Shown: positions 1,513-60,174 of the stretch, in pieces
Layout: every line of letters starts with the position of its first letter
Numbering within the stretch: the stretch's first letter is position 1
Virus record (IMG/VR): IMGVR_UViG_3300043395_001986
Coordinates: 62,001-126,000 of that record
Length of the DNA stretch: 64,000 nt
Origin: a virus
Direction: 5' to 3' (one strand)
The notes under the pieces: generated by a model
What the model was told of the DNA's origin: nothing
Seen by the model: the letters and a program-made list of their open reading frames with translations, nothing else
Databases searched by the model: none
Position numbers and translations under genes: made by a program

Positions 1513-1806
1513 ATGGCAACATCAAAAAAAGAAACTGAAAAAAATGTAGAATCTACATCAGTAGCATTATTAGAAGAAAGAAAAGTTAAAGCATTGGAAA
1601 AAATAGCCAAATCACTGGATGCATTAACATCTTGGGTTGAAGATATAGATAAGGCAGAATGGAGCGAAAGAATCCAGTATTATTTATATGAGTTCTTAAA
1701 TAAAGACCAATCCAAATCGTATAGACAAGATAAGAATACTAAAACACAAGAAGAAGATACAGAAGAAGCAGAATTTGTAAGACCAACTCGTAGAATAGTT
1801 GAATAA
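1513..1806 (+). CDS. Small charged hypothetical protein between glycosyltransferases
   Basis: A 97-residue protein, rich in Lys and Glu, with a central segment likely to be helical (ALLEERKVKALEKIAKSLDAL, about 18-38), a Trp-containing patch (WVEDIDKAEWSERIQYYLYEFL) and a disordered, acidic tail. I recognise no family. Its stop overlaps the start of the next gene by one base (TAATG), so it is probably translationally coupled to the GT7-LamG enzyme that follows. A small accessory or adaptor protein for the neighbouring enzymes is possible, but that rests only on position. Confidence 0.6.
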   Translation: MATSKKETEKNVESTSVALLEERKVKALEKIAKSLDALTSWVEDIDKAEWSERIQYYLYEFLNKDQSKSYRQDKNTKTQEEDTEEAEFVRPTRRIVE

Positions 1807-4708: not shown

Positions 4709-4711
4709 TAA

Positions 4712-6106: not shown

Positions 6107-6936
6107 ATGAATATGTAAAATTTACGGATAATCTTTCCGTACAGGTCTATGAAAATAGTAAACATGGTACATCTATGAAAGATGATGCTGTTAAAACTTT
6201 TTTTAATAAAACATTTAGCATATACGCTAAATTTAAATTAGATAAAACTGCCTTTTGTAATGCAGAAAATACATATGGTGTATTTGCTAAACAAGGAATG
6301 CACTCTGGTGTTTGGTTAAGAGATAGTTGCGTTGTTGGTTTGGTTTTTACTCAAGATGAAAAAAATAATGTTAAAGAAATAGCGTTACCAATATGGATAG
6401 ATGAAAAAGAGTTTTATGGTGAGATACAAATTTTATTTCAAGTAGATAATGAAAATAAAAAAGTAAAACTATATGTAAATGATAAAGAAGCAGAAGCAAC
6501 ATTGGATAATCCAGTAGTAGATTATTCACAGGCACCTTTTTGGATTGGAGCATGTGCACCCTGGTATACCGAAGATTTACAATGGTTTTTTAATGGGGAA
6601 ATATATGAATTTGCAATAAATGAAAAATTCTTAAATGAAGAACAAGTAAAAACAATATTTGTAAATAAAGGATATACTAATATTGTTAATTCTGAAATAA
6701 ATGAATCTTTATTTGCTTGGTATGAATTTACTATTAAAAATTTTAGTAGATTTAAAGTGTTTGATAAAAGTAATAATGGTAACCATGGAATAGTACCAGA
6801 TTGGCATTTTTTAGAGGTTAGAGATAAATTACAAGCATATAGTAGGGATAAAATAGAAATAAGCGAATTTGGAAAAAAATTAATACCAAAAAAAGAAGAA
6901 GTAAAAAATAAAAGTAATCCATTTAATCTTATATAA
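6100..6936 (+). CDS. Stand-alone LamG/concanavalin-like protein
   Basis: A 278-residue protein related to the LamG part of the three GT7-LamG proteins just upstream. It keeps the same features: KTFSIYAKFKLDK, AKQGMHSGVWLRD, a strand pair with KVKLYVNDKEAEATL, PFWIGACAPWY, FFNGEIYEFAINEKFLNEEQV, and the closing FAWYEF...FDKSNNGNHGI. No GT7 motifs remain on either side, so it looks like a LamG module freed from the enzyme or the source of the insertion. It is probably a carbohydrate-binding partner. No signal peptide is visible. It overlaps the radical SAM gene by 7 nt. Confidence 0.75.
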   Translation: MLNEYVKFTDNLSVQVYENSKHGTSMKDDAVKTFFNKTFSIYAKFKLDKTAFCNAENTYGVFAKQGMHSGVWLRDSCVVGLVFTQDEKNNVKEIALPIWIDEKEFYGEIQILFQVDNENKKVKLYVNDKEAEATLDNPVVDYSQAPFWIGACAPWYTEDLQWFFNGEIYEFAINEKFLNEEQVKTIFVNKGYTNIVNSEINESLFAWYEFTIKNFSRFKVFDKSNNGNHGIVPDWHFLEVRDKLQAYSRDKIEISEFGKKLIPKKEEVKNKSNPFNLI

Positions 6937-6937
6937 A

Positions 6938-7906
6938 ATGAAAATATTAATCACCGGTGGCGCGGGATATTTAGGTTCAGTTATAACAAAAAAAATGTTA
7001 GATGTAGGACATGAAGTAACGGTCGTAGACAATCTTTCATTTAAGCAGTTATCACCATTAAATCATACAGCAAATCCAAACTATAATTTTATCAATGTTG
7101 ATGTAAGACAAAAATTAGTGTTAAAAAGATTGGTAGCGTTTCATGATGTTATTATACCATTAGCTGCAATTGTTGGATTTCCTGCGTGTAAAGCAGACCC
7201 ACAATTAGCATGGGATGTAAATTTTCATCAAATTGAAACAATATTAGAAGCAGTAGATGACCATCACATAATACTTTATCCAAATACAAATAGTGGATAT
7301 GGTATAGGTGAAGGACAAACCGAATGTACAGAAACATCACCATTAAATCCAATTTCAGTTTATGGTGAAAGTAAAGTAGCGGCTGAAAAATTATTATTAG
7401 AAAGTTCATCTGCTGTATGTTTCCGTTTAGCAACTGTCTTTGGTACATCACCAAGAATGAGAACAGATTTATTAGTAAATGAATTTGTTTACAAAGCAAT
7501 GACAGATAAATATATTACCGTCTTTGAGAAGAATTTTAAAAGAAATTTTATTCATATTCAAGATGTTGCAAATGTATTTTTACATGCATTAAACAATTAT
7601 GATAAAATGAAACATAATGTTTATAATGTTGGATTGAGTGATGCAAATTTAAGTAAACAAGAATTATTAGAAAAAATTAAAGAACATATACCTGATTTTG
7701 CAATTACATATTCTGATTTTTATGAGGACCCGGATAAAAGAGATTATATTGTATCAAACTCAAAAATAGAAGCAACTGGTTGGAAACCGCAATATACATT
7801 AGATGATGGTATATTAGAATTGATGAAAGGGTATAGAGTTTTAATACCAAGAATGACATCGGAATTTAGAAACGGATTTCCTTTGGGATATGCACAAAAC
7901 TTTTAA
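6938..7906 (+). CDS. NAD-dependent sugar epimerase/dehydratase (extended SDR)
   Basis: The 322-residue protein has the Rossmann dinucleotide motif TGGAGYLG (6-13), VVDNLS (29-34) and the complete active-site pair Tyr142 and Lys146 in VYGESKVAAE, with the Ser/Thr partner in NTNSGYG. It belongs to the extended SDR family that converts nucleotide-activated sugars (epimerases, 4,6-dehydratases and reductases). Of the three SDR proteins in this cassette it is the only one with a standard YxxxK. It is followed after 2 nt by an RmlC-like epimerase, a pairing typical of deoxysugar synthesis. Its exact substrate cannot be named. Confidence 0.85.
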   Translation: MKILITGGAGYLGSVITKKMLDVGHEVTVVDNLSFKQLSPLNHTANPNYNFINVDVRQKLVLKRLVAFHDVIIPLAAIVGFPACKADPQLAWDVNFHQIETILEAVDDHHIILYPNTNSGYGIGEGQTECTETSPLNPISVYGESKVAAEKLLLESSSAVCFRLATVFGTSPRMRTDLLVNEFVYKAMTDKYITVFEKNFKRNFIHIQDVANVFLHALNNYDKMKHNVYNVGLSDANLSKQELLEKIKEHIPDFAITYSDFYEDPDKRDYIVSNSKIEATGWKPQYTLDDGILELMKGYRVLIPRMTSEFRNGFPLGYAQNF

Positions 7907-7908
7907 GT

Positions 7909-8445
7909 ATGAGTAGCAAATGGGACGAGTTCAAAATAACTCCATCAAAAAAATTTGGTATAGAAGTTCCACAATTTCAACCATCGGTATTTAGAGAATA
8001 CAGAGGCGAGATATTTACAACCTTTCATTCAAAAGAACACCCTGTAATGAATTATGTGAGTGATGGATGTGAAATACATGGTAGGTTTTCTCGTTCATAC
8101 AAAGGTGTATTGAGAGGATTGCACTGGGATAATAAGACTTGGAAATTAGTTCAAGCAGCAGTTGGTGATATCTATTTAGTTGTATTAGATATGAGAAAAA
8201 ATAGTCCTACATTTGGTGAATGGGAAAATTATATTATAAGTGAGAGATTAAGAAATCAAGTATTAGTTCCACCAGGATTTGCAAACGGACACTATGCATT
8301 AACCGATTGTATGTTTCATTATAATTTATTTTATAAAGATGGTTATGTAGATGCGGATGAGCAAGGCGTAGTGAAGTGGAATGACCCGGAATATCAAATT
8401 GAATGGCCAACAAATAATCCAATATTACAAAAAAGAGACAGATGA
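7909..8445 (+). CDS. dTDP-4-dehydrorhamnose 3,5-epimerase-like (RmlC-type cupin)
   Basis: A 178-residue cupin-fold protein, close to the usual RmlC length. It shows SYKGVLRGLHWDNKTWKLVQAAVGDIYLVVLDMRKNSPTFG in order (about 63-103, catalytic His72 in RGLH), then VLVPPGFANGHYAL (118-131) where RmlC has PxGFAHGF, and a tyrosine-rich FHYNLFY (136-142). The segment after RGLH is shorter than in textbook RmlC, so a related 3- or 5-epimerase of a nucleotide 4-keto sugar is possible. It lies directly behind an SDR gene and overlaps the TPP enzyme gene by 4 nt. Confidence 0.8.
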   Translation: MSSKWDEFKITPSKKFGIEVPQFQPSVFREYRGEIFTTFHSKEHPVMNYVSDGCEIHGRFSRSYKGVLRGLHWDNKTWKLVQAAVGDIYLVVLDMRKNSPTFGEWENYIISERLRNQVLVPPGFANGHYALTDCMFHYNLFYKDGYVDADEQGVVKWNDPEYQIEWPTNNPILQKRDR

Positions 8446-9074
8446 TAAAAAATTTAGAAAAATATCCAGTTGTATCTGAAGCTAGATTTACAAAGGATGA
8501 ATTAGTTAATTACGAAAGAATGATTGCTGACCATTGGGAAGCAGGTAGAATTAAAGGACCAGTTCATTTAAGTGGTGGTAATGAAGAACAATTAATTGAA
8601 ATTGGAAAAAGAATTAAAGAAACCGATTGGGTATTTTCAACCTGGCGTTCTCACTATCATGCACTAATCAAAGGTGTATGCCCGGTTTGGTTAGAAGAAG
8701 AAATATTAGCAGGTAGAAGTATTACCATTGTTAGCGAAGAACAAAGATTTTATGCAAGTGCAATTGTAGGTGCAATTATACCAATAGCAACCGGTGTAGC
8801 AATGGTAAACAAACGTGATGGTAAAGATGATAAAGTTTGGTGCTTTGTTGGTGATATGGCATTTGAAACGGGTGGTTTCTATGAAATGCATAAATACGCA
8901 GTAAATTTTGACTTACCAATTGTATTTGTAGTTGAAGATAACGGAGTATCAACAAATACACCAACAGAAGCAACTTGGAATGTTAAAAAAGATATTCCTT
9001 CGGAAAAAGTTATTTGGTATAATTATGAAAAAGTGTGGCCGCACTACGGAACAGGAAAATGGGTAATTTTTTAA
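8442..9074 (+). CDS. Thiamine-diphosphate enzyme, E1-alpha/transketolase-N-like subunit
   Basis: A 210-residue protein with the ThDP-binding motif of dehydrogenase E1-alpha and transketolase N-domains: VGDMAFETGGFYEM (136-149; GDM instead of GDG) and, about 27 residues on, VVEDNGVSTNTP (163-174) whose Asn167 would bind the Mg ion. WRSHYHALIKGV (68-79) matches the E1 substrate-channel histidines. It is much shorter than pyruvate dehydrogenase E1-alpha (about 320-370 residues) but ends with PHYGTGKWVIF, which I judge to be a natural end of the compact phage/LPS-cluster form. The partner Pyr-domain subunit lies at 15223. The stop overlaps the next start by 16 nt. Confidence 0.8.
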   Translation: MIKNLEKYPVVSEARFTKDELVNYERMIADHWEAGRIKGPVHLSGGNEEQLIEIGKRIKETDWVFSTWRSHYHALIKGVCPVWLEEEILAGRSITIVSEEQRFYASAIVGAIIPIATGVAMVNKRDGKDDKVWCFVGDMAFETGGFYEMHKYAVNFDLPIVFVVEDNGVSTNTPTEATWNVKKDIPSEKVIWYNYEKVWPHYGTGKWVIF

Positions 9075-10549
9075 ATTTAGTTTTTGATAAAGAAATAGAT
9101 GGGTGTTTTATTCCAAACGGAAATACCGATGATATTATAAAATCTTTAGATAAAGTTAGAGAATTTTATGATAATCAAAGTTGGGAAGATTTTACACGCC
9201 ATTGTCACGATGGAATGTGGGATGCATATGTAAAAAATAAAAATGAAAAAGTTTACAATTATGTATATAATAAACCATATAAATGGTATGGGTATTGGGA
9301 AGGTATTGATGAAAGAAAATATAGGTTTAAGTTACAGAATTCAGAAGATAGATGGACGGTTCATCTAAAAAATATAGATGATATTGTAGAAGGTGAACAA
9401 AACATATATTTGGTAGATTTTAAAGGTAATGTTCTTTTTATTTTTGCAGAAGAACCAGAATGGATAGAACCAAATGGTAGGGGTTACAGACCTGGTAAAT
9501 TATTTAATTTAAGTGATAAAGTTTTAACGGCATTAAAAGATAGAAAAATAAAGTTAGTTTTATCAAATATAGAAGAAGGTGGTGGTGATATAAATTTATT
9601 CTTTGATTGTGTATATTCTTCTATAAAATTTTATGATTTACCTGCTGATTTAATTTATATTATACATGGTAATCATAATATAGAAGAATTATACGAAGAA
9701 TACTGCATAGAAAATAAAATAGATAATAAAATAAAAGTTTATAAATCAGAATATCTTTTTGAAATAATATCAAAAAGTATGCAGATGAATATCGGTAGAG
9801 TAGATAAATTGGGATATGATATAAAAGACCTTACCGAAAAAGAAGTTTTAGATAACTTGGATAGAAATAAAAAATTTATTTTATTAAATAGAAATGCATA
9901 TAAACCTCACCGATTTTATTTATTATCTAAATTAAATCAAATAGGAGCGTTGGATGATAGCTATTTTTCTTGTCTTTTTAATAACGAAGGAGATATTAAA
10001 TACGAAAATTATTTAGAACCAATATTAAGTAAAGAAGATTTTGAAAAAGAGCTACCGATAATGAAAGCCTTTCAAGATTTAGGCTCCGTAAAAATACCAG
10101 AAGAAAGAACACAATTGGAAAATTTAAAAGAATTTTTTGATGTATTTGCAAATACAGATTATACATTGTTTAAAAATTCATATTTTTCAATTGTATCAGA
10201 AACTTGCTTTGAAGATAATTCTGCCCATTTGACAGAAAAAACTTGTAAAGCATTATATTATTTTCATCCATTTATAATTGTTGGTGGTTATAAACATTTA
10301 TATCATTTAAAAGAAAGAGGATTTAAAACATTTGATAAATGGATTGATGAAAGTTATGATTTGATAAAAGACCCAAAGGAAAGAATGAAAGCGGTTTTAA
10401 AAGAAATTGAAAAAATTAATAACATAGAAACACTTAAAAAAATCTATATAGAAAGTTTTGATATATTAAAACATAATCATGACATGTATATGGATTTAAA
10501 AAATAAATCTTTTTTATCTAAAATTTTAGTTCAAATTGCAAACGATTAA
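9059..10549 (+). CDS. Putative GT-B glycosyltransferase, GT10-like (paralogue 1)
   Basis: A 496-residue protein starting at ATG 9059 (MGNFLNLVFD). An in-frame GTG at 9035 lies deeper in the preceding gene and is less likely. The C-terminal part has FSIVSETCFEDNSAHLTEK (about 376-394) then CKALYYFHPFIIVGG. That closely resembles the fucosyltransferase (GT10) donor-site pattern with a TEK triad. A GF.TF.kwiDEsYD segment follows. The N-terminus has a motif, G-x-I-P-N (GCFIPNG), shared with the paralogues at 10536 and 15761. I infer a nucleotide-sugar glycosyltransferase of unknown specificity; it is too divergent to name a donor. Confidence 0.6.
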   Translation: MGNFLNLVFDKEIDGCFIPNGNTDDIIKSLDKVREFYDNQSWEDFTRHCHDGMWDAYVKNKNEKVYNYVYNKPYKWYGYWEGIDERKYRFKLQNSEDRWTVHLKNIDDIVEGEQNIYLVDFKGNVLFIFAEEPEWIEPNGRGYRPGKLFNLSDKVLTALKDRKIKLVLSNIEEGGGDINLFFDCVYSSIKFYDLPADLIYIIHGNHNIEELYEEYCIENKIDNKIKVYKSEYLFEIISKSMQMNIGRVDKLGYDIKDLTEKEVLDNLDRNKKFILLNRNAYKPHRFYLLSKLNQIGALDDSYFSCLFNNEGDIKYENYLEPILSKEDFEKELPIMKAFQDLGSVKIPEERTQLENLKEFFDVFANTDYTLFKNSYFSIVSETCFEDNSAHLTEKTCKALYYFHPFIIVGGYKHLYHLKERGFKTFDKWIDESYDLIKDPKERMKAVLKEIEKINNIETLKKIYIESFDILKHNHDMYMDLKNKSFLSKILVQIAND

Positions 10550-11834
10550 ATTATATTACAAAGATTGGTATGATGGAAAATATCCAATACCAAATGGAAC
10601 ATCAAATGATGATATACAAAAAATGAATTTTCATAATTTGGAGTCATTTAATGAATTTAAAAAATATATACACATAAATTTTAATTCAACACGTCACACA
10701 GAATTTGTTGCAAATCAAAATGTAGAAGAAGAAAGACCTGGTTTAATTAAACTTTCTCTTGATAATGAAAGAAAGATTTATCTTACAAACAATCATGAAA
10801 ATTGTCATTTCATTTTATTTTGTGGAAAGGTTAGATATGATAGTTTAGATTTTGAAAAAGTAAAAGAACTTAAAAGTTTAGGAAAGCCATTTTTGTTTAT
10901 TAATATGCACGAAGGTAGTTATGATGATTGGTCTCATAATAAATTAAAAGAGCAAATTGGATATGATAATTGTATATTTGTTTCGGGTAATACAATATAC
11001 GAAAGTTTAGAAACCGATAAAGGAATATGGTTTCCATTTTTCGCATATAGTATGGGACAAGAAATAAAACAATATGAAACAACAACACGTCAGTTTTATT
11101 TAAATGATAATCTAATTAAAATTGGAGAGGTTGATAGGTGGATATCTCAACCAAAAGAAAAAAAATATTATTCATTAAATAAAAGTGCAAATAGAGCACA
11201 TAGAGCAGTTTTATTGTTGTGGTTGTATAAAAATGGATATTTGGATGAAGGATATGTATCTGCTTTATTATGTGAACATATAGATTATTCCGATGAACTA
11301 TTTAAAACAATGAAAGGATATAGGAATATGCGAGCGTTGACTAAAGAAATTTCTGATGAATTTATAAAAATATTACCACTAACATTAGATGCGACAACAC
11401 CAGAAGAAATATCAGAACATGCATCACCAAAGTATAATATTGCAAACTATTATGAAAATACTTGTTTTAATATTGTAACCGAAACAGATTTCTTTTCAAA
11501 AGGATGTAATATAACGGAAAAAATATTTAAACCAATTCTTAATGGACAATTTTTTATACCAATTGGTAATAGGCATTTAGTAAAAAATTTAGAAAAATTA
11601 GGATTTAAAAAGTATACTATTTTGGATTATTCTTTTGATGAATGTGAACATGATTTTGAAAGATTAGATATGGTTTTATCCCAAATAGATAAATTTATGA
11701 AATTATCAAAAGAAGAATTGGTTGAATTAATAAAAAAAGATATAGATATTATTAGAGAAAATCAAAAACATTTCTTATCTTTGAATATTAATGATGGATT
11801 TAAAGTTTTATTTGACAAAATAAATAATTTATGA
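10536..11834 (+). CDS. Putative GT-B glycosyltransferase, GT10-like (paralogue 2), TTG start
   Basis: A 432-residue protein with the same C-terminal signature as its neighbour: CFNIVTETDFFSKGCNITEK then IFKPILNGQFFIPIGNRHLV. A GFKKYTILDYSFDECEHD segment follows. The start at TTG 10536 is chosen because the N-terminus KLYYKDWYDGKYPIPNG aligns with the start of the paralogues (LVFDKEIDGCFIPNG and LVYDNWNINGFIPN). The first in-frame ATG, at 10623, would delete this shared motif. It overlaps the upstream gene by 14 nt and the downstream SDR gene by 4 nt. A sugar transferase acting in this glycan cassette is the best guess. Confidence 0.6.
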   Translation: MQTIKLYYKDWYDGKYPIPNGTSNDDIQKMNFHNLESFNEFKKYIHINFNSTRHTEFVANQNVEEERPGLIKLSLDNERKIYLTNNHENCHFILFCGKVRYDSLDFEKVKELKSLGKPFLFINMHEGSYDDWSHNKLKEQIGYDNCIFVSGNTIYESLETDKGIWFPFFAYSMGQEIKQYETTTRQFYLNDNLIKIGEVDRWISQPKEKKYYSLNKSANRAHRAVLLLWLYKNGYLDEGYVSALLCEHIDYSDELFKTMKGYRNMRALTKEISDEFIKILPLTLDATTPEEISEHASPKYNIANYYENTCFNIVTETDFFSKGCNITEKIFKPILNGQFFIPIGNRHLVKNLEKLGFKKYTILDYSFDECEHDFERLDMVLSQIDKFMKLSKEELVELIKKDIDIIRENQKHFLSLNINDGFKVLFDKINNL

Positions 11835-12769
11835 AAAAGGTTTTAATAACAGGATGCAGTGGATTGGTGGGAACACATTTAGTAAAAAAATGTATAGATT
11901 TAGGATATAAAGTAATTGGTGTAGATATCAATAGAAGTAAAAATCTACCAGATATTGGGTGGCAATTTATACAGGATGATTTAACTAAACCATTTGCAAT
12001 AGAGAGTTTATTTATGAATAATAAATTCGATGCGGTATTTAATACATTTGGTGTAAAAGGTTCACCAATGAGAGCAAAAAATCAACCAGTAGACTTTCTA
12101 TACCCATCATTTAAAATTAATACAGAGATTATCAACCAATGTGCAAAGAATAATATTTGGTTGATATTTGTAAGTTCGGTTGGAGTATATGCACCAGCTG
12201 AAAAGTTTGTAGAAGATAGTGTATGGAAAACACTTCCATCCGAAGCAGATTGGTTTCCATCTTGGAGTAAAAGAATGGGTGAAATATTATTAGAAGCATA
12301 TAAAGTTCAATATGATTATACTAAATGGTCAATAATTAGACCTGCAAATATTTTTGGAGAATATGATGATTTCAGCGGAAAGGGGACAGTTATTGCATCC
12401 ACAATTAAAAAGATTTACGAAGCAGATTCGGATTCAATAGAAGCGTGGGGAGATGGTTCACCAATTAGAGATTTTGTTTACGGCGGTGATGTAGCAGATG
12501 CAATTTTACAACTATATCAAAATGGTAAAAACGAAATTGTAAATTTTGGTGCAGGCGAAGAAATTACAATTAAACAAATGATTGAAACTCTTATTAAAAT
12601 TAGTGGTAAAAATTTATCTATAAATTGGGATACTACAAAACCAAATGGAGACCTTCGTAGACAAATGGATACAACTAAACAAAAAGAAATTAGTTTATTA
12701 CCAAAGTTAGGTTTTGAAAAAGCATTGGAAAAAAGTTATAACTTTTATAAAAAAAATTTAAATAAATAA
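11831..12769 (+). CDS. Extended SDR sugar epimerase-like protein lacking the catalytic Tyr
   Basis: The 312-residue protein has TGCSGLVG (7-14) for NAD(P) binding, VDINRS after strand 2, FVSSVGVY (113-120), RPANIFGEYDDFSG and a GDGSPIRDFVYGGDVADAI segment typical of NDP-sugar epimerases. The active-site helix reads FPSWSKRMGE (142-151). Lys147 is present, but the position four residues before it is Pro143 instead of Tyr. Either the active site is rearranged or the protein no longer catalyses the usual redox step. It starts 4 nt inside the previous gene and is related to the SDR at 14242, which shows the same loss. Confidence 0.75.
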   Translation: MKKVLITGCSGLVGTHLVKKCIDLGYKVIGVDINRSKNLPDIGWQFIQDDLTKPFAIESLFMNNKFDAVFNTFGVKGSPMRAKNQPVDFLYPSFKINTEIINQCAKNNIWLIFVSSVGVYAPAEKFVEDSVWKTLPSEADWFPSWSKRMGEILLEAYKVQYDYTKWSIIRPANIFGEYDDFSGKGTVIASTIKKIYEADSDSIEAWGDGSPIRDFVYGGDVADAILQLYQNGKNEIVNFGAGEEITIKQMIETLIKISGKNLSINWDTTKPNGDLRRQMDTTKQKEISLLPKLGFEKALEKSYNFYKKNLNK

Positions 12770-12783
12770 TTATTAAAAAAGAT

Positions 12784-13527
12784 ATGGAAATTTTAGAAAA
12801 AGGATTTTCTGTAAGAAATATAAAAGATGTTTTATCAGAAGAAATGATTAATTATTTAATACAACTTACTGATATTTTTCCATTTGTAGAAAATAATAAA
12901 GAAGAAATTTTAAGAAAAAGAGTTAGTTCAAATTATTCGGAAAGAAGTGCAGATGATACATATGATTATAAGGAAGGTGTAGAAAAACAACAATATCTTT
13001 TTAATAATGCATATCACATTTCTCAAGCCTGGTCTTTTTTAAAACCATTTGAAATGTTCAAAGAAGCAGGAAAAGATGGAAGATTTGTAACAGAATTTGG
13101 AAACAACCTACAAAAAATATCAGAAGATTTAATTAAATTTGAATATCCAAATTTTGATATAAACCCACAGGATGTTAGAAGTAGAGGAGGTTTAACTTAT
13201 TATGAAGATGGTGATTTTATAGAAATGCACGCCGATGGTAAAAATGAAACTCGTCTTTGTGTTATTTTATTATATCTAAACAAAGATTGGAATAGTGAGT
13301 GTGGTGGAGAATTGGTATTAGAAGATTCTGGACATAATAAAATAGCAGTAGTTCCACCTAAATTTGGTGATTATGTTATTCTAGATTTTGTTCAAAATAA
13401 TGTAAGACATGCAGTTAATCATATTAAGAATGGGTTTAAAAGATTTACCTTTGCTCATTTTATCGAATTAAGAGAAAATGAAAGGTCAAATTGTTGGAAC
13501 GAATTCAAAAAAATAAAAGTAATATAA
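12784..13527 (+). CDS. 2OG-Fe(II) oxygenase (prolyl-4-hydroxylase-like)
   Basis: A 247-residue double-stranded beta-helix dioxygenase. The iron ligands are His149 and Asp151 (FIEMHADGK) and His209 (NVRHAVNH). The 2-oxoglutarate-binding Arg220 lies in GFKRFTFAHF. ILLYLNKDW, CGGELVL and PPKFGDYVILD match the P4H-type family. It should hydroxylate an amino-acid side chain or small molecule using Fe, O2 and 2OG. A second, related oxygenase follows at once with a one-base overlap. Its position in a glycan cassette suggests hydroxylation of a sugar or of a glycosylated protein, but that is inference. Confidence 0.8.
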   Translation: MEILEKGFSVRNIKDVLSEEMINYLIQLTDIFPFVENNKEEILRKRVSSNYSERSADDTYDYKEGVEKQQYLFNNAYHISQAWSFLKPFEMFKEAGKDGRFVTEFGNNLQKISEDLIKFEYPNFDINPQDVRSRGGLTYYEDGDFIEMHADGKNETRLCVILLYLNKDWNSECGGELVLEDSGHNKIAVVPPKFGDYVILDFVQNNVRHAVNHIKNGFKRFTFAHFIELRENERSNCWNEFKKIKVI

Positions 13528-14240
13528 TGGAAAACTTTTTTGAAAAAGGATATCATATTGGTAGTATCTACGATATATTAAATGATTCGGAAATAGAACA
13601 ATTAAAAGAAATAAAAAATAAAGTTATAGAACAAAGTAAAGATGATAATAATATATCCGGTAGATACGACCATTCGGGTGGAAATTATGAATCAAATAGA
13701 GTTACGATTGATGAATTAAAACAAAGAGATATAGAAGTTTTTGATAATGATTATACAATTTATCAAAGATGGAGAGAAATAGAAGGCATATATGACCAAA
13801 CTATTCAAGAAGAAATAAACAGATTAACTTTCAAATTATTAAATCATTTATATTCGGAATATGAATTTGAAGAATCTGATTTAAATTTAGGAGGACCATT
13901 TACTTTATATGTAGAAGGTGATATGCAAAATCCACATAGAGATGGTAACGGAGGAAATATATTATGTGCAGTTTTAATTTATTTAAGTAATCCAGAAGAT
14001 TGGAAAGAAGAAAATGGTGGAATGTTATATATAAGAAATAAAGGTGAGGATAAAATGGCAATAGAACCTGTATTTGGAAATTATGTTGTATTGGATATGT
14101 TAAAGAATGATGTAGAGCATGGGGTATCGCATGTAAATGGAGATTTTAAAAGATACGCATCAATACATTTTCCATCGGTATATGAAACAAGCCAAAAATA
14201 TAAAAAATTTATAGAAAACAAAGTTATAATAAAAAAATAA
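13527..14240 (+). CDS. 2OG-Fe(II) oxygenase, tandem paralogue
   Basis: A 237-residue paralogue of the preceding gene, with ligands His137 and Asp139 (NPHRDGNG) and His198 (VEHGVSH), and the co-substrate Arg209 in DFKRYASIHF. CAVLIYLSNPEDW and GGMLYIRN follow the same order. The start is the ATG at 13527, which overlaps the stop of the previous gene (TAATG). Its first residues, MENFFEKGYHIGSIYDIL, align with MEILEKGFSVRNIKDVL of the neighbour. An in-frame TTG at 13491 lies inside that gene and is rejected. The role is predicted to be hydroxylation in the same pathway. Confidence 0.8.
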   Translation: MENFFEKGYHIGSIYDILNDSEIEQLKEIKNKVIEQSKDDNNISGRYDHSGGNYESNRVTIDELKQRDIEVFDNDYTIYQRWREIEGIYDQTIQEEINRLTFKLLNHLYSEYEFEESDLNLGGPFTLYVEGDMQNPHRDGNGGNILCAVLIYLSNPEDWKEENGGMLYIRNKGEDKMAIEPVFGNYVVLDMLKNDVEHGVSHVNGDFKRYASIHFPSVYETSQKYKKFIENKVIIKK

Positions 14241-14241
14241 T

Positions 14242-15219
14242 ATGATAAACAAAGATTCAAAAATCCTAATAACAGGTGGTTCCGGATTAGTAGGACAAAA
14301 TTTAACCAACAGATTATACAGAGAAGGTTATACAAATTTAAGAGTTAATTTACACAGAAGAGGTGTAAGAAAAAAATTAGATGGAGTTGAGTACACTCAC
14401 TTAAATTTAAAAGACCATAATGAATGTTTAGAAGCAACAAAAGGAATTGATGTTGTATTCCATTGCGCAGCAAGTACATCAAACGCAGTTGATACTGTCG
14501 TTGACCCATTGGCACATGTTACACCAAATGTGGCAATGAATAATTTCTTAATTGATGCTAGTTGGAGAAACAAAGTTCAACATTACATCTTCTTATCATC
14601 TAATACAGTCTATCCACCAAAAGGAGATACACCGGTAGTTGAAACGGATTTCTTATTTGATGAACCATATCCTGTATATTTTCCAGTAGGTTGGATGAAA
14701 AGATATGCAGAAGTTCAATGTGAATTATATGCAAAGTATTTGCCTGAAAAAATGAAATGTACAATTATTAGACCTGCAAACTTATATGGGCCACATGATA
14801 AATATGATTTCAATAAATGTCACGTTACTCCTGCAACAATCCGTAAAGTAGCTGATAAGATGAATCCTATTCCAATTTGGGGTGATGGTAGTGAATTGAG
14901 AGATTTATTATATATTGAAGATTTTGTAGAAGCATTACAAATAGTAATGGAAAAAGAAACTGAAGATTTTCAAGTTTATAATATTGGTTCTAACCGAGTT
15001 TATTCTGTATTAGAAGTATTGGAAGCAATGAAAAGAATTGCAAACTTTGATGCACCAACCGAATTTATTAAAGGAAAACCATCAATGATTCCAACTCGTA
15101 AAATTGATTCATTTAAGATTTATGATAATTTGGGATGGCAAGCAACTACTAAATTAGAAGATGGTTTAGCAAACGCATATGAATGGTATTTAGAAAATAA
15201 AGAAGAATTTAAAAATTAA
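14242..15219 (+). CDS. Extended SDR sugar epimerase-like protein lacking the catalytic Tyr (second)
   Basis: The 325-residue protein has ITGGSGLVGQN (10-20), VVFHCAASTS (71-80), YIFLSSNTVYPP (115-126), RPANLYGPHDKYDF and WGDGSELRDLLYIEDFVEAL, all typical of NAD-dependent epimerase/dehydratases such as GDP-fucose synthase relatives. The active-site helix is FPVGWMKRYAE (147-157). Lys153 is kept, but Val149 stands where Tyr is expected. It is followed after 3 nt by the TPP Pyr-domain gene. It shares the W-x-K-R-x-x-E helix with the SDR at 11831, so the two form one subfamily. Confidence 0.78.
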   Translation: MINKDSKILITGGSGLVGQNLTNRLYREGYTNLRVNLHRRGVRKKLDGVEYTHLNLKDHNECLEATKGIDVVFHCAASTSNAVDTVVDPLAHVTPNVAMNNFLIDASWRNKVQHYIFLSSNTVYPPKGDTPVVETDFLFDEPYPVYFPVGWMKRYAEVQCELYAKYLPEKMKCTIIRPANLYGPHDKYDFNKCHVTPATIRKVADKMNPIPIWGDGSELRDLLYIEDFVEALQIVMEKETEDFQVYNIGSNRVYSVLEVLEAMKRIANFDAPTEFIKGKPSMIPTRKIDSFKIYDNLGWQATTKLEDGLANAYEWYLENKEEFKN

Positions 15220-15222
15220 GTT

Positions 15223-15768
15223 ATGAGCTCACCAGAATATACTCCATATAAAGATGCATTAACAAATGCAATGACGGAATTGGCAAAAAAAGATGATATC
15301 GTTTTTATTGGACAACAAATAGTTTATCCAGGCAATCCTATGAGTACAACATTGGGTAATGTATCTAAAGACCTAATGATTGAAGTTCCTGTTATGGAAG
15401 AATCACAAATGGGTATGAGTTTAGGAATGGCGATGGCAGGTAAATTTGTAGTTACATTTTATCCACGTTGGGATTTTATTATTTGTGCAGCAAATCAATT
15501 AATAAATCATGTTGATAAAATTGGTTTGATGAGTGGCGGAAAATGGAAACCAAATTTATTAATCAGATTAGGCAAGGGTTCTGATAAACCATTAGATCCA
15601 GGACATCAACATAGAGGTAACTATTTTGAAGAGTTTAAATCTATTTGTAAAAATATTGAATTTCACGATTTAAAAACACCTATTGATATTGAATTAGCAT
15701 ACAAATATGCAACAAAAGAAGGTGGTATACATGTATTGGTAGAATATCCTGAATTATATTATGCGTAA
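15223..15768 (+). CDS. Thiamine-diphosphate enzyme, E1-beta/transketolase-Pyr-like subunit
   Basis: A 181-residue protein that matches the N-terminal Pyr domain of E1-beta and transketolase: YKDALTNAMTELAKKDDIVFIGQ (9-31), EVPVMEESQMGMSLGMAMAGK (54-74), where Glu59 or Glu60 would activate the thiazolium ring, YPRWDFIICAANQLIN and PGHQHRGNYFEEF. The usual C-terminal domain of E1-beta is missing, leaving about half of the normal length. It probably pairs with the alpha-like subunit at 8442 to give one active ThDP enzyme. Its last 8 nt overlap the next gene. Confidence 0.8.
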   Translation: MSSPEYTPYKDALTNAMTELAKKDDIVFIGQQIVYPGNPMSTTLGNVSKDLMIEVPVMEESQMGMSLGMAMAGKFVVTFYPRWDFIICAANQLINHVDKIGLMSGGKWKPNLLIRLGKGSDKPLDPGHQHRGNYFEEFKSICKNIEFHDLKTPIDIELAYKYATKEGGIHVLVEYPELYYA

Positions 15769-17104
15769 TTTTGATAGACTTTATTTAGTATATGATAACT
15801 GGAACATAAATGGATTCATTCCAAATTGTGTTGAAAAGGAAGTGTTTCAAAAAATAGATGAAACAATACACACAATAGGAAATGGATTAGAAAATTTTTT
15901 AGGTAGAGAATTTCCACCAGAAAAATTTAATACATGGACAAACTATTGTGGGTTTAAAAAAACACACCAACAATTAGTAGATTTTGTTCCATATTATTAT
16001 GCATCAACCGGTGCATGTAATCATTGGTTTTATGCAATAGAACCATGGGGGCATTGGTCTTATTCTATTTTTGAATCAAATGTATTTAATAAAATAGATA
16101 ATAAAATAAAGAATAATATAAACAATGGAAATGCTACTTTGATAATTAATTATTCACATGAAGGAAATGTTAGTGATTTTTTCATAGATAGTATAATTAG
16201 AAAGTTGAAAGAAAGACAAATAGATTTACGAAATGTATTGATTATCGTAAATGATTTTGATATTGATAATAAAATAAAAAAATATAAAAGTGAAAGAGGA
16301 AGCGGATTATTATCCGAAAGATACTTTCCAACATTTTTTAATTTTTCTTGGTATTTACTAAATAGTTCAGAATATTACATTGAAACATCAAAATACATTT
16401 TATCAAAAGATAACATTCAAAAAAAAGATATTAAGTTTTTATCATATAATAAAAATATGTCTCAACATAGAATAATGTATTTGATGGAACAATATGAAAA
16501 ACTAAAGGATAATTCTTTAATTAGTTTTGATAAAACATTGTTAAGCAATTTATGTAAAAGATGGTTAGATGAAGAAGCGAGTGATGAAATAAAAGAAAAA
16601 TATAAAAATTTTAAAGAAAGAGAGGTGTTGGATATAACCGATATGAATAATGTTCATGGCTATGGTTGTGATGTGTTAGAGCATTATGATAAAACATTAA
16701 TTAATATTACAACAGAAACTTCATTTTTTGATGAAGCAAATTATATAAGTGAAAAAATTTGGAAACCAATTTGGTATGGGCAACCTTTTATTTTAATCGG
16801 AAGACCTGGTACATTAAAATATCTCCGTTCTTTAGGATTTAAAACATTTGGTTGGTTAATAAATGAAAGATATGATGACATTGAAGATAACGATAAAAGA
16901 TTTACTTTATTAATGAATGAAATTGACAGATTAAATTCAATGGATATAGAAGAAATCAAAAACTCAATATCAATAAATTTTTTTGATTTAGAACATAATA
17001 GAAAATTATTAGAAAAAATTGGAAAAGAACGTGATAGTTATGAGTACAAACTTTATAAAAAAATTAAAAATTATAAAAATGAAAAAGATTTTAATGTATT
17101 TTAA
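15761..17104 (+). CDS. Putative GT-B glycosyltransferase, GT10-like (paralogue 3)
   Basis: A 447-residue protein with NITTETSFFDEANYISEK (315-332), then IWKPIWYGQPFILIG and GFKTFGWLINERYDDIED, the same C-terminal block as the two paralogues at 9059 and 10536. The N-terminal LVYDNWNINGFIPN motif is also shared. Trp-, Tyr- and His-rich segments in 85-115 (CNHWFYAIEPWGHWSYSIF) could shape an acceptor site. A nucleotide-sugar glycosyltransferase is the most reasonable reading. The donor and acceptor are unknown. Confidence 0.6.
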   Translation: MRNFDRLYLVYDNWNINGFIPNCVEKEVFQKIDETIHTIGNGLENFLGREFPPEKFNTWTNYCGFKKTHQQLVDFVPYYYASTGACNHWFYAIEPWGHWSYSIFESNVFNKIDNKIKNNINNGNATLIINYSHEGNVSDFFIDSIIRKLKERQIDLRNVLIIVNDFDIDNKIKKYKSERGSGLLSERYFPTFFNFSWYLLNSSEYYIETSKYILSKDNIQKKDIKFLSYNKNMSQHRIMYLMEQYEKLKDNSLISFDKTLLSNLCKRWLDEEASDEIKEKYKNFKEREVLDITDMNNVHGYGCDVLEHYDKTLINITTETSFFDEANYISEKIWKPIWYGQPFILIGRPGTLKYLRSLGFKTFGWLINERYDDIEDNDKRFTLLMNEIDRLNSMDIEEIKNSISINFFDLEHNRKLLEKIGKERDSYEYKLYKKIKNYKNEKDFNVF

Positions 17105-31147: not shown

Positions 31148-31158
31148 ATATTTATATA
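31148..31158 (+). promoter_or_regulatory. ATATTTATATA motif 13 nt before 31161
   Basis: The motif ends two bases before the ATG of the coiled-coil protein gene. If it is a promoter, the mRNA is leaderless or nearly so. Confidence 0.4.
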
Positions 31159-31160
31159 CA

Positions 31161-32009
31161 ATGATAAAGTTAAAATCACTATATAAAGAAAATTTCAATA
31201 ATGATATTCGTAGAAACTTTTTAGAAATAATTTCTACGTTTAATCAATATGGAAAGCAATTAAAAAGAGAACAAGATATTTCTAGTATTGCAGAAAATTT
31301 AAGCGGCATAGCAAATGCAGCTAGAATGTTTTCAGTAAATGAAGCAGAAGATTGGTTTGATGGCATGACCGTTAAAAAAAATATGGAAGCTTTGGGTAAA
31401 ATTGCAGAAGAATTTAAAAAAGTAGCAAGTGAATCAAAAGTGCATGAAGATAGAATGAGTGCATTGTATGATGATATGGGTCACATATTAGGTAGATATT
31501 TTGAAATTGCAGATTTACCAGACGATGCAAAAATAGCACAAGAAGAAGCAGATGCTGAAATGGCTCAAAAACAAGATACATACGATAGAATTAGTGGAGC
31601 GTATGAAAAAGTTAAATCGTATAAAAATAGATTAAAAGAAGTTGCAGCTAAATTGAAGGAAGAGAAGGGTAGAATACAAAATGCTACAACTCACGTTCAA
31701 ATGCACAAAGAAAGATTAAAAGCGGCTAATGAAGATTTAAAATTAAAAAAAGAAAGAATCAGAGAAGCTAATAAAAAAATAAAAGAATCTAAATTAAGAT
31801 TAAAAGGTTTATACGAAAAATACAAAACACCAACAGAGTCAGTAAATGAAATGGAAAATCCTTGTTGGAAAGGATATGAGATGGTTGGCACTAAAATGAA
31901 AAATGGCAGAGAAGTTCCTAATTGCGTACCTAAAAACGAAATAAAAGAAAACAATTGTGGATGTAACAAAAATCACGATTGTGGATGTGGTGGAGTACAT
32001 AAGCACTAA
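31161..32009 (+). CDS. Coiled-coil protein with Cys/His-rich tail
   Basis: A 282-residue protein with a leader (MIKLKSLYKENF), a helical first half and a long coiled coil (about 135-225, heptads such as RLKEVAAKLKEEKGRIQNA and ANEDLKLKKERI). A loop with PCWKGYEMVGTKMKNGREVPNC (about 235-256) follows, and then a metal-binding-like tail NNCGCNKNHDCGCGGVHKH (264-282). The loop with two Cys residues is a small module seen in other phage virion proteins. It is a possible internal core or scaffold-associated protein. Function unknown. Confidence 0.6.
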   Translation: MIKLKSLYKENFNNDIRRNFLEIISTFNQYGKQLKREQDISSIAENLSGIANAARMFSVNEAEDWFDGMTVKKNMEALGKIAEEFKKVASESKVHEDRMSALYDDMGHILGRYFEIADLPDDAKIAQEEADAEMAQKQDTYDRISGAYEKVKSYKNRLKEVAAKLKEEKGRIQNATTHVQMHKERLKAANEDLKLKKERIREANKKIKESKLRLKGLYEKYKTPTESVNEMENPCWKGYEMVGTKMKNGREVPNCVPKNEIKENNCGCNKNHDCGCGGVHKH

Positions 32010-32012: not shown

Positions 32013-32249
32013 ATGTTGATAATAGACGTTAAAGAAGGTAACATAGATAAGGCATTAAAAAAACTTAAAAGAAAATGGCAAGATTCTAAAGCCGTTGAGC
32101 AATTAAGAGATAGAAAAGAATATACTAAGCCATCCGTTACAAAAAGATTAGAGAAAGAAGATGCTGTTAGAAAAAATTTAAAACAGATAAAGAGTACTCT
32201 AGATTTTAAAAAATCAAAAAATATTCCTACAAAATATAAAAAAGTTTAA
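32013..32249 (+). CDS. rpsU: Phage-encoded ribosomal protein bS21 homologue
   Basis: The 78-residue protein reads MLIIDVKEGNIDKALKKLKR, then KWQDSKAVEQLRDRKEYTKPSVTKR, matching bS21 over its first 45 residues. The MLII start and KPSV motif are closest to Bacteroidota S21. bS21 sits on the 30S platform beside the 3' end of 16S rRNA. In Flavobacteria, host bS21 helps hide the anti-SD sequence, with a conserved Tyr54. By eye, the aligned position here is Arg53 (KEDAVRKN), and the tail is longer than usual. It lies inside the head operon, 4 nt after the coiled-coil gene. It may redirect ribosomes toward phage mRNAs. Confidence 0.85.
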   Translation: MLIIDVKEGNIDKALKKLKRKWQDSKAVEQLRDRKEYTKPSVTKRLEKEDAVRKNLKQIKSTLDFKKSKNIPTKYKKV

Positions 32250-33592: not shown

Positions 33593-35230
33593 ATGGCACA
33601 ATTCGATTTATCAAAATTGATGGAAGGCAAAAACCCACAATCAGTAATGCTTGAGCAAACTAGAGGTTTGAGAAGCAAGTGGGAAAAAACTGGCCTTTTA
33701 GAAGGTATCGGAACTGCAACTGAAAAAGCAGGTATGGCGGTACTTTTAGAAAACCAAGCAAAGCAATTGTTGGATGAAGCAAACTATACTTCAACAACAG
33801 CTGGTAACGAAGAATGGTCTGGAGTGGCTTTACCACTTGTAAGACGTATCTTCGGTGAAATTGCAGCAAAAGAATTCGTTTCAGTACAACCAATGAACTT
33901 ACCTTCAGGTTTGATTTTCTATATGGATTTCAAATATGGTTCTAACCAACCAGGTAACCCATCTTTCCAAAACTCATCATTATTCGGTAGTGGTGGTTTA
34001 GCAGGTAAAGATTCTTTATCTCCATCAGGTGAAAAATTAGGTTCTACTCAAACTGCACAAGGTGGTTTATATGGTGCAGGTAGATTCGGATACACTTTAA
34101 ACGATACATTCTCATCTTCAGCAGCTACTTTATGGTCTACATCTTCAGTATCTTTCGCAGATGTTAACTTTGATGCTAATTTCTTAGCAACTGGTTCATT
34201 AAAGAAAGTGACTGTAGGTATTCCTTCAGACGCTGATTACAATGGTATCAGAAGTTTCCAAATTGGTGGTGCACAAATCACTTCAGGATACTATCCACAA
34301 TTTACAAAATTAGATGGTACAACTTTATCATTCATCGTTCCTGCTATCACTGGTTTATTAACTGGTTCATTAAGATTGGACTACACTAAGCAACCAACTG
34401 CAGCAAACAGAGGTGATTTCGAAGAGAAAGGTACAAGATTTAATGATGTAAATGATGGTGATGCATTAGACATCCCAACAATCGACCTTGAATTAAAATC
34501 AGAGGCTATCGTTGCTAAAACTCGTAAGTTGAAAGCAGTATGGACTCCTGAATTAGCTCAAGACTTAAACGCTTACCATTCAATTGATGCAGAAGCTGAA
34601 TTAACTTCTATGTTATCTGAATACATCTCTTTAGAGATTGATTTGGAAATTTTAGAAATGTTACAGCAAAATGCATTGACTACAGAAAGATGGTCAGCTA
34701 GAGTTGGTTATGAGTACGACCAAGCAACAAGTGCATTCGTAGCTGATTCTTCAACAAATGCAGCATCTGCATACCAAAAGAACACTTGGTTCCAAACTTT
34801 AGGTGTTAAAATCAATAAGGTATCTAACAAGATTCACCAATTGACTTTAAGAGGTGGTGCTAACTTTATCGTTGCATCTCCAGATGTATGTACTATTTTA
34901 GAATCAATTCCAGGATTTGCAGTAACTGCTGATAAAGACGCTAAGCAATTCTCTGCTGGTGTTTCTGCAGTAGGTAACATCGCAAACAGATACACTGTCT
35001 ACAAAAATCCTTACATGACTGAAAACGTAATGTTAATGGGTTACAAAGGAAATAACTTCCTTGAGACTGGTGCTGTTTATTCTCCATATGTACCATTGGT
35101 ATTAACTCCATTGGTGTACGATCCAGATAACTTCACTCCAAGAAGAGGAGTTATGACTCGTTACGCTAAGAAGATGGTAAGACCAGAATTCTATGGTAAG
35201 ATTGTTATCGCTGATATGGATAAAATCTAA
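33593..35230 (+). CDS. gp23: Major capsid protein (gp23-like)
   Basis: The 545-residue protein has the HK97-fold T4-like signature: SVMLEQTRGLRSKWEKTGLLEG (17-38), PLVRRIFGEIAAKEFVSVQPMNLPSG, YHSIDAEAELTSMLSEYISLEID, and a late block NPYMTENVMLMGYKGNNF followed by GAVYSPYVPL. LLE/G at 35-38 is a plausible maturation cleavage site for gp21. It forms the hexamers of the shell. A strong terminator lies directly downstream, as expected for the most abundant late mRNA. Codon use is richer in C-ending codons (AAC, TTC, ATC) than the glycan genes, consistent with high expression. Confidence 0.95.
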   Translation: MAQFDLSKLMEGKNPQSVMLEQTRGLRSKWEKTGLLEGIGTATEKAGMAVLLENQAKQLLDEANYTSTTAGNEEWSGVALPLVRRIFGEIAAKEFVSVQPMNLPSGLIFYMDFKYGSNQPGNPSFQNSSLFGSGGLAGKDSLSPSGEKLGSTQTAQGGLYGAGRFGYTLNDTFSSSAATLWSTSSVSFADVNFDANFLATGSLKKVTVGIPSDADYNGIRSFQIGGAQITSGYYPQFTKLDGTTLSFIVPAITGLLTGSLRLDYTKQPTAANRGDFEEKGTRFNDVNDGDALDIPTIDLELKSEAIVAKTRKLKAVWTPELAQDLNAYHSIDAEAELTSMLSEYISLEIDLEILEMLQQNALTTERWSARVGYEYDQATSAFVADSSTNAASAYQKNTWFQTLGVKINKVSNKIHQLTLRGGANFIVASPDVCTILESIPGFAVTADKDAKQFSAGVSAVGNIANRYTVYKNPYMTENVMLMGYKGNNFLETGAVYSPYVPLVLTPLVYDPDNFTPRRGVMTRYAKKMVRPEFYGKIVIADMDKI

Positions 35231-41974: not shown

Positions 41975-41998
41975 GGGTAAAGGAGTAACTGAACTAAT

Positions 41999-46790: not shown

Positions 46791-46796
46791 AAAGGA
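46791..46796 (+). promoter_or_regulatory. SD-like AAAGGA before the 205-residue fibre gene
   Basis: AAAGGA lies 10 nt before the ATG at 46807, with a second AAAGGA just upstream. Most genes in the window have no such site. Confidence 0.4.
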
Positions 46797-54827: not shown

Positions 54828-55838
54828 ATGTATGATGTTTATTATACAACTGGTTACGGAAATAAAGTAGGAGCTGGAAGTGATTTGTGGGTTAACAATT
54901 GGATTGAATGTGTGGCTCCAAAACTTACAAAAAAATCAGTATTACTAATTCATAGAAGTAAGCCAAAAAATTACGAAGAGGGGAATGAACTTCCCCTTTC
55001 CGTTTTTTGGCAAAGTGATGACCCAATTAAATTTGATGAAATGTTGGATGAATGTGAAAATATACACATTCTACACGGACATTATTATCCATCACATGGA
55101 TTAATAAGAAATCTAAATAAAATAAAAAGTTATGTAATGCATAACTCAATTGATTTGAGTTTAAAAGCTGGTTTATTCTCCGATGCACCAGGTGTACAAC
55201 ACTTTGGAGCAGATAGTGAATGGGAAAATAATATAATTGAAAAAGCAGAAAAAAGAATTTGGGTTGGAGTATTTGATACACCAAAACATGCTAATTATAA
55301 ATTTGAAAATATCCCAAATTATTATGAGTTTATTCATAATAAAAAACTATCAGATTCAACAATAGTTGGATTTGCAGCAAGAACTGAAACACGAAAGAGA
55401 GTTTGGTATTTAGAAAATATAAAAAGTGTAATTTTTACAAATGCTAAAATTTTAAGAGATATCTGGGAGAAAAAATATGGATGTGATTTTAGAAAATCAA
55501 AAGTATATAATTTTGATTGGCAATTTCACACTAATTTTTTTGAAATGGATTGGGGAATAGCACATTGTGCATTTAACTATGAACCATTTGGATATGGTAT
55601 ATTTCAAGCCGTTGATTGGGGTAAACTTCCAATAATTAGTAATACATGGAATCCTGATTTTGGCTATCCATTTAGAGCTGATAATAAAAAAGAATTTGAA
55701 AATTGTGTTGAAAATATAAAAAAATTAAGTTACGAAGAAAAAGAAATACATTTTAATAAAATAAAAATGTTTTTATCTGATAATTATTCCGACAAAGAAT
55801 TGTGGACAAAAAGATTATTAGATATTTATATTAGTTAA
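54828..55838 (+). CDS. GT-B glycosyltransferase within the fibre locus
   Basis: A 336-residue protein with an N-terminal Rossmann-like half (VYYTTGYGNKVGAGSDLWVNNW, 4-25; HILHGHYYPSHGL) and a C-terminal half with VGFAARTETRKRVWYLEN and CAFNYEPFGYGIFQAVDWGKLPIISNTW, which mirrors the GT4 donor site EPFG...q.ve.m..g.piI. It probably transfers a sugar to a protein or glycan. Its place, 3 nt after a fibre gene and 12 nt before the Hint-LamG gene, suggests that it glycosylates fibre Ser/Thr residues. An intragenic terminator-like hairpin lies at 54979. Confidence 0.75.
   Translation: MYDVYYTTGYGNKVGAGSDLWVNNWIECVAPKLTKKSVLLIHRSKPKNYEEGNELPLSVFWQSDDPIKFDEMLDECENIHILHGHYYPSHGLIRNLNKIKSYVMHNSIDLSLKAGLFSDAPGVQHFGADSEWENNIIEKAEKRIWVGVFDTPKHANYKFENIPNYYEFIHNKKLSDSTIVGFAARTETRKRVWYLENIKSVIFTNAKILRDIWEKKYGCDFRKSKVYNFDWQFHTNFFEMDWGIAHCAFNYEPFGYGIFQAVDWGKLPIISNTWNPDFGYPFRADNKKEFENCVENIKKLSYEEKEIHFNKIKMFLSDNYSDKELWTKRLLDIYIS
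54979..55008 (+). terminator. Terminator-like hairpin inside the glycosyltransferase gene
   Basis: AGGGGAA pairs perfectly with TTCCCCT over a 5-nt loop (54979-54997), followed by TTCCGTTTTTT. It lies about 150 nt into the coding region and could attenuate transcription from the fibre genes. Confidence 0.4.
55822..55830 (+). promoter_or_regulatory. ATATTTATA motif inside the end of the glycosyltransferase gene
   Basis: It is 29 nt before the ATG at 55851 and is followed by an SD-like site. It is the only copy seen inside a coding end. Confidence 0.4.
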
Positions 55839-55843
55839 AGGAG
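55837..55843 (+). promoter_or_regulatory. Strong SD site before the Hint-LamG gene
   Basis: AAAGGAG lies 7 nt before the ATG at 55851. It supports this start and is unusual in a genome where most genes lack SD sites. Confidence 0.6.
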
Positions 55844-57866: not shown

Positions 57867-57872
57867 AAGGAG
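57867..57872 (+). promoter_or_regulatory. Strong SD site of the tail sheath gene
   Basis: AAGGAG lies 6 nt before the ATG, a textbook spacing for one of the most abundant virion proteins. Confidence 0.65.
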
Positions 57873-60168: not shown

Positions 60169-60174
60169 AAAGGA
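60169..60174 (+). promoter_or_regulatory. SD site of the tail tube gene
   Basis: AAAGGA lies 8 nt before the ATG at 60183. A weaker relative of the promoter-like motif (TACTTATATA) is at 60151. Confidence 0.5.

Follow-up and report, generated by a model that had tools for sequence, protein, structure and literature searches.

The bS21 gene and its surroundings

The window analyzed here, a stretch of 64,000 nucleotides, corresponds to positions 62001–126000 of a 237,307-bp virus record (G000). It carries a gene for ribosomal protein bS21 near those for the portal (26199), the prohead protease (29917), and a T4-like major capsid protein (33593), all on the same strand as bS21, with a T4-like sheath and tube farther along the window (Table 1). 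As judged by the capsid protein, the nearest isolate is Microcystis phage Mel-JY01, at 54%, followed by Flavobacterium phage immuto at 50%.

Table 1. Features of the window (window coordinates)
Feature	Position	Strand	Basis or remark
Early-class block of 17 genes, SD motif in 0	18..17104	+	class carried down operon
Late-type motif TATTTATA ahead of gene 31161	31149..31156	+	motif position, motif enrichment
282-aa gene immediately upstream of bS21, C-terminus Cys/His-rich	31161..32009	+	sequence
Phage bS21 gene, 78 aa	32013..32249	+	second gene downstream of late-type motif; without an SD motif of its own
Arg53 codon (AGA), in the column of F. johnsoniae bS21 Tyr54	32169..32171	+	alignment
25-residue tail past Arg53, ending IPTKYKKV	32172..32246	+	alignment
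Major capsid protein (PHROG 138), without SD	33593..35230	+	profile match, upstream scan
AAAGGAG, at a long spacing from the start of the 1592-aa gene 41999	41979..41985	+	SD scan
AAAGGA ahead of tail-fiber-like gene 46807	46791..46796	+	SD scan
AAAGGAG SD ahead of LamG protein 55851-57512	55837..55843	+	SD scan, Pfam
SD (AAGGAG) of the tail sheath gene 57879-60137; Arg-type long-tail relatives also have a sheath SD	57867..57872	+	
SD (AAAGGA) of the tail tube gene 60183-60671; Arg-type long-tail relatives also have a tube SD	60169..60174	+	

An earlier, sequence-only reading of the locus had described a bS21 with the motifs MLII and KPSV, and the product indeed matches Pfam Ribosomal_S21 (E 6.9e-14; 51.7 bits against a cut-off of 27), NCBIfam TIGR00030 (E 4.6e-13; 48.8 bits against a cut-off of 28.95), and, by phmmer, chain 7jil_z, the bS21 of Flavobacterium johnsoniae (E 3.5e-9). 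MLII forms the N-terminus, and KPSV occupies residues 39–42. The phmmer alignment stops at residue 52 of the query and 53 of 7jil_z, which sets Arg53 opposite Tyr54 with no intervening gap, and the block running from KPSV through KR to Arg53, the Tyr54 column included, is free of gaps in the alignments of phage bS21s. The observation of a phage bS21 that bears Arg at this position, and neither Tyr nor Phe, is confirmed, as is that of a longer tail, the cellular bS21s compared being mostly 60–68 aa in total length. An AlphaFold2 model built from 30 sequences (mean pLDDT 77.9, pTM 0.36) has helices at residues 11–25, 27–33, and 40–65, the last of which contains Arg53. The tail motif K.IP.K(Y/F) is common to the window bS21, L012, L013, L014, and L058, and spans bS21 groups that are set apart in the core tree (the window protein; L013, L014, and L058). 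The aromatic residue of this motif may serve a separate function.

No Shine–Dalgarno (SD) motif lies upstream of 32013, where pairing amounts to -2.2 kcal/mol, and an extended SD of the autoregulation type is likewise absent ahead of the gene. Such an extended own-gene SD is not a universal feature, since only 7 of 30 Bacteroidia rpsU genes (the 30 best-scoring loci) reach -13 kcal/mol. SD motifs are also absent from the bS21 genes of all five Arg-type phages compared below (G000, G001, G007, G009, and G086). In the gene immediately upstream of bS21, the Cys/His-rich stretch of the product has, by eye, a metal-binding look.

Residue 54 in phage and cellular bS21 proteins

Published work holds that ribosomes of Bacteroidia hosts hide the 3′ tail of 16S rRNA by means of bS21 Tyr54, bS18, and bS6; the F. 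johnsoniae study describes Tyr54 as stacking on A1534 (PMC9976891). For bS21s of Bacteroidetes phages, the available portion of Chen et al. (2022) gives an aromatic residue at position 54 in 61 of 61 (PMC9723584), which places Arg-type phage bS21s outside what is described there. The aromatic residue is not always kept by phages: the 86 phage rows of our alignment (duplicates included) hold Arg in 45, Tyr in 36, His in three, and Ala in two, although these counts are not population frequencies, since the search was seeded with the Arg-type window protein. The phage rows comprise the best 80 of 214 confirmed viral-contig loci plus earlier matches, and the alignment as a whole has 88 rows (45 Arg, 38 Tyr, three His, and two Ala), including two cellular rows, both Tyr. 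Arg at position 54 is common in phage bS21, and the window protein is not unique in this respect.

Among cells, the 30 best-scoring loci of class Bacteroidia (99 genomes searched, 96 matched) comprise 27 with Tyr, one with His, and two with Arg. A draw of 99 genomes from the phylum Bacteroidota, all with a bS21 match, provided among its 30 best-scoring loci 27 outside the class list, 24 of which have Arg and three Tyr. Arg is the commoner state among the Bacteroidota sequences compared from outside the class draw, and some Bacteroidota cells are naturally of the Arg type.

These counts bear on an explanation that seems to us rather unlikely, namely that the host itself has an Arg54 bS21 and reads SDs somewhat, with the phage protein mimicking that of the host and the late SDs described below boosting highly expressed genes. 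Although the frequency of Arg54 outside the class list would favor such a host, and the two Arg-bearing Bacteroidia (L472 and L486) weakly adjoin the phage group in a bS21 tree built on 52 columns (support 0.698, then 0.373), the same tree keeps every phage sequence out of both a clade formed by 17 Arg cells (0.826) and a set of six other Arg cells (0.984). Moreover, the first 50 residues of the window bS21 reach an identity of 0.60 with Tyr cells but no more than 0.44 with the 25 Arg cells, and SDs are barely used in the early genes of the same phages. The phages are placed among Tyr-bearing Bacteroidia at a node support of only 0.027; tree supports are weak, and the tree gives no resolution as to the origin of the phages.

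L472 and L486 have no strong SD ahead of their bS21 genes. Joostella atrarenae possesses three bS21 genes (L426, L428, and L429), with an extended SD only at L428; among the cellular genes found, none is closer to the window bS21 than L426.

Promoter motifs and hosts

Two promoter motifs are relevant to these phages. The first, with elements at -33 and -7 (TTG, a spacer of ~20, and TAnnTTTG), is one that we take to be of the Bacteroidota type, and the second, TATTTATA, is presumably a T4-like late promoter motif. Matches to the first were counted upstream of genes on the coding versus the opposite strand, with a spacer of 19–21. The window's own record, G000, has 11 coding-strand matches versus one on the opposite strand (0.33 in shuffled sequence), and the corresponding counts are 13 versus 0 in G001, 26 versus 1 in G007, 18 versus 0 in G009, 13 versus 0 in G086, 6 versus 0 in G029, 7 versus 1 in a stretch of crAss001, and 0 versus 0 in a stretch of T4. 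The presence of this promoter points to a Bacteroidota host, in agreement with the host setting that the sequence-only reading had assumed; its absence says little.

As a strict host marker, the motif is of limited value. It has no match in Flavobacterium phage immuto (stretches 1–100 kb and 117–155 kb) or in Cellulophaga phage phi14:2 (1–50 kb), while the "Microcystis" phage Mel-JY01 has 15 on the coding strand versus two on the opposite strand, with 0.23 in shuffles (PP395634, 40–140 kb, L421–L422). The 15 matches suggest that the true host of Mel-JY01 may be a member of the Bacteroidota in the culture. Finally, G010, the record of L073, has one promoter match and SD motifs in 105 of 282 genes, and some Arg types (L009 and L073) may infect SD-using hosts.

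SD motifs in late and early genes

A phage that uses SDs in general was ruled out by the lack of any overall SD enrichment in the window, where pairing of -7 kcal/mol or better precedes 3 of 57 genes and 16 of 239 internal ATGs. Genes, defined as first-ATG ORFs by a custom script, were split into late (TATTTATA) and early (Bacteroidota-type promoter) classes, the class being carried along operons; for the early-class block with which the window begins, the promoter match in question (Bacteroidota type) precedes the first position of the window. In the five Arg-type phages, an SD motif is found in 74 of 624 late genes versus 13 of 539 early genes (stratified p 6e-8), the classes being based on motifs rather than expression and the split having been chosen after the sequences were seen. 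The individual values for late and early genes are 11/102 and 0/94 in G000 (p 0.0008), 38/182 and 6/108 in G009 (p 0.0003), and 14/122 and 1/89 in G086 (p 0.005); the difference is not significant alone in G001 (6/92 versus 3/100, p 0.32) or in G007 (5/126 versus 3/148, p 0.48).

The position of the motifs was also informative. Ahead of late genes, GGAG, AGGA, or GAGG occurs 96 times at -15 to -11 and 40 times at -10 to -6, versus ~19.6 per bin upstream, and early genes of the five phages show a slight rise in the same bins (27 and 15 versus ~17.4). Relatives without bS21 (G029, G097, and immuto) have no peak (4 and 3 versus ~7.4), the Arg-bearing, short-tailed G077 and G078 have a weak rise (9 and 13 versus ~5.4), and the peak is absent from Tyr/His-type phages. 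In G029, SD motifs are slightly more frequent in early (5/83) than in late genes (1/101).

Within the window, just 7 of the 41 late-class genes have an SD motif. The tail block at 41999–60671, which was picked after seeing the data, has the motif in 5 of 11 genes versus 2 of 47 elsewhere (p 0.0017). The SDs that the sequence-only reading had placed on the sheath, tube, and "Hint-LamG" genes are all present; the LamG domain of the last was recovered, but Pfam at E 0.001 gave no Hint domain.

SD use across bS21 types

A comparison across bS21 types was made without choosing genes, by setting motif matches in the peak against the background. The 23 Arg long-tail types together have 171 peak matches versus 21.5 in the background, the five Arg short-tail types 14 versus 3.5, and the 16 Tyr short-tail types 9 versus 22.5; one Tyr long-tail type has 4 versus 0.8, three His types 4 versus 1.2, and one Ala type 7 versus 1.8. 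Several Arg long-tail types (e.g., L069, L072, and L074) have little or no peak.

An SD of GGAG or better precedes the sheath gene in all nine Arg long-tail records for which the sheath start is available (G000, G001, G003, G007, G009, G010, G011, G012, and G086), and the tube genes of these records have at least AAAGGA or AAAGGG. The sheath SDs have strengths of ~-6.4 to -9.3 kcal/mol by our own duplex method, which differs from that of PMC9976891. Neither sheath nor tube has an SD in immuto, G029, or G097, and bS21 is absent from the whole scanned record of immuto, from 176 kb of G029, and from 44.5 kb of G097, the latter two being linear and possibly incomplete records. In G086, which has SDs, the usual slot lacks bS21, but an HMM scan located an Arg54 bS21 at ~211 kb.

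There are exceptions to this association. The bS21s of G077 and G078 combine Arg54 with a short tail, yet neither the sheath nor the tube gene of these phages carries an SD, and LR756508 has a long-tailed bS21, Met at position 54 (by eye), and no sheath SD. A sheath SD accompanies Tyr54 in G100, G105, and G108; SD motifs occur in 5/22, 4/16, and 3/13 genes of L308, L313, and L314, which have no bS21 at the slot; and G106 has AAAGGA upstream of an uncertain start, again with no bS21 at the slot. These exceptions show that no rule can be built on Arg alone and that the tail, other residues, or the host's bS18 and bS6 must matter. Tail length as the sole cause was rejected because G013 and Mel-JY01 combine short tails with SDs and LR756508 a long tail with none. 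The Tyr54 long-tail types L065–L068 were set aside as a sister control to G012, only two G012 genes (bS21 and a 94-aa gene) having been matched in their 20-kb loci.

Among 89 sheath sequences, 50 have an SD on sheath and tube (sheath alone being counted where the tube is lacking), 30 have none, and nine are mixed, with several separate SD-less branches. Of the 80 sheath-scan contigs, 50 were searched with PF01165; three contain a bS21, and most of the contigs are fragments that end short of the bS21 region. Cross-tabulation gave 20 records with SD and bS21, none with SD and without bS21, three without SD and with bS21, and three with neither (Fisher p 0.008; G106 and G083 (slot not covered) left out, G107 and G109 classified by tube only), but the table mixes host types with no correction for kinship and is therefore not leaned on.

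It is possible, though in our estimation unlikely, that the association reflects lineage history, the SDs being old in the T4-like clade and their retention or loss following host range, so that residue 54 would play no causal part. The sheath tree shows few changes of state, the Tyr/His-type records searched lack a phrog_23 sheath and mostly represent another phage lineage, and G077 and G078 retain Arg yet have no SD; however, a late-only pattern in genomes with Bacteroidota-type promoters would not be expected from drift, and bS21 is missing from some of the several separate SD-less lineages (G029, G097, and immuto).

A possible switch in message selection

Mutants of F. johnsoniae show what the loss of Tyr54 can do. 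In that study (PMC9976891), GFP output from an AGGAGGU reporter was 70% higher with Y54A, and Y54A ribosomes in vitro gave a ~3-fold higher yield from rpsU'-gfp, which has a strong SD, with a similar yield from the SD-less tuf'-gfp. With a different SD-less mRNA, Y54A was poorer at forming initiation complexes, so that costs are possible. The same text points to exceptionally strong SDs, below -13 kcal/mol, and reports that F. johnsoniae ribosomes without bS21 translate the strong-SD rpsU mRNA.

This last result could be taken to mean that the phage bS21 is a functional top-up or replacement copy, with the late SDs serving otherwise or being read by naturally bS21-less ribosomes, of which a weakly bound competing protein would create more. 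We consider this improbable: the published SDs lie below -13 kcal/mol (PMC9976891), beyond the values obtained for the sheath SDs, albeit by a different duplex method, and such a copy offers no account of why Tyr-type phage bS21s come without SDs.

The reading that we prefer, to which we assign a probability of roughly 0.53, is that a phage bS21 lacking Tyr54 enters 30S subunits late in infection, frees the anti-SD, and favors SD-bearing late virion mRNAs. Because host ribosomes hide the 3′ tail of 16S rRNA, early phage genes would be expected to be SD-less, as by motif they are. The message for phage bS21, itself SD-less, would need no SD for its translation, and the absence of the motif in all five phages means that the protein can be made before the switch. 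Late in infection, phage bS21 would take the place of the host protein in 30S subunits. With Arg53 in place of Tyr54 and an extended tail, it would presumably no longer hold the anti-SD, and the SD-bearing late virion mRNAs, chiefly those for sheath, tube, and a LamG protein, would then benefit. The late bias of the SDs fits such a release late in infection, and the combination of an Arg-type bS21 with late-only SDs suggests a virus-driven switch in the ribosome's choice of message.

Since Arg alone does not predict SD use, its effect probably depends in part on the tail or on other changes. The interpretation that the sequence-only reading had offered, a switch toward SD-bearing phage mRNAs, is partly supported: here and in related Arg-type phages, SDs do precede late tail genes but not early genes; however, Arg alone fails as a predictor (G077 and G078), and Arg is also the commoner residue among the Bacteroidota sequences compared from outside the class draw. 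A broader scheme, to which we would give even odds, combines two-stage initiation, in which early mRNAs, being SD-less, are suited to the sequestered ribosomes of the host and a Tyr54-less bS21, made from an SD-less message, exposes the anti-SD on entering 30S and thereby leads to selection of virion mRNAs with SDs, with two classes of phage bS21, mimics (Tyr/His) and switchers (Arg plus an extended tail), the switch having evolved more than once from Bacteroidia-type proteins.

If the preferred reading is true, the swap of one ribosomal protein alters the rule of mRNA selection during infection, providing a natural specialized ribosome with defined target mRNAs. Moreover, the question of why phages carry bS21 becomes testable with existing F. 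johnsoniae ribosome assays.

Relation to known systems

A Tyr54-less phage bS21 would be a natural counterpart of Y54A. The Y54A and delta-C proteins of F. johnsoniae share with the window protein the loss of Tyr54, and in them the use of strong-SD mRNA rises, as far as the available text of PMC9976891 goes; they are, however, laboratory mutants with rpsU as the natural target, whereas here a natural phage protein has several candidate late targets and its own gene is SD-less. The bS21s of Chen et al. lie near capsid genes, as here, and were proposed to replace host bS21 late in infection and, like it, to keep the anti-SD blocked (PMC9723584). In contrast, the window protein has Arg and a longer tail, some late genes of its phage carry SDs, and the portal, protease, and capsid genes lie on the same strand as bS21, whereas in Chen et al. 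they lie on the opposite one (PMC9723584).

Entry of a phage bS21 into ribosomes was shown in E. coli with the protein of Pelagibacter phage HTVC008M (Mizuno et al. 2019, PMC6375957), which has an alphaproteobacterial host; E. coli ribosomes with this bS21 translated poorly (~5%), and the available text of that paper draws no link to anti-SD sequestration. Al-Shayeb et al. (2020) discussed phage S21 and, in relation to S1, SDs (PMC7162821). A search of the open-licence literature found nothing linking late-gene SDs of Bacteroidota phages to phage bS21.

Among isolates, Mel-JY01 (PP395634; stated host a cyanobacterium; 128 of 190 kb covered) is a T4-like relative with bS21 between the prohead protease and capsid genes, Arg at position 54 (by eye), and SDs on sheath and tube, as in G000. 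Unlike in G000, its SDs are not late-only (early 9/79 and late 1/15 at 40–140 kb; 5/21 at 12–40 kb).

Other features of the window

The late motif TATTTATA ends just 4–6 nt ahead of some start codons (motif and start at 31149/31161, 40954/40966, and 41242/41256), and such mRNAs would thus be nearly leaderless. The gaps between motif and start are larger for the SD-bearing genes 41999, 55851, and 57879. Finally, at 18–4708, three adjacent early-class genes fuse a galactosyltransferase (Glyco_transf_7) to a LamG domain, and this trio is followed by radical SAM and epimerase genes.
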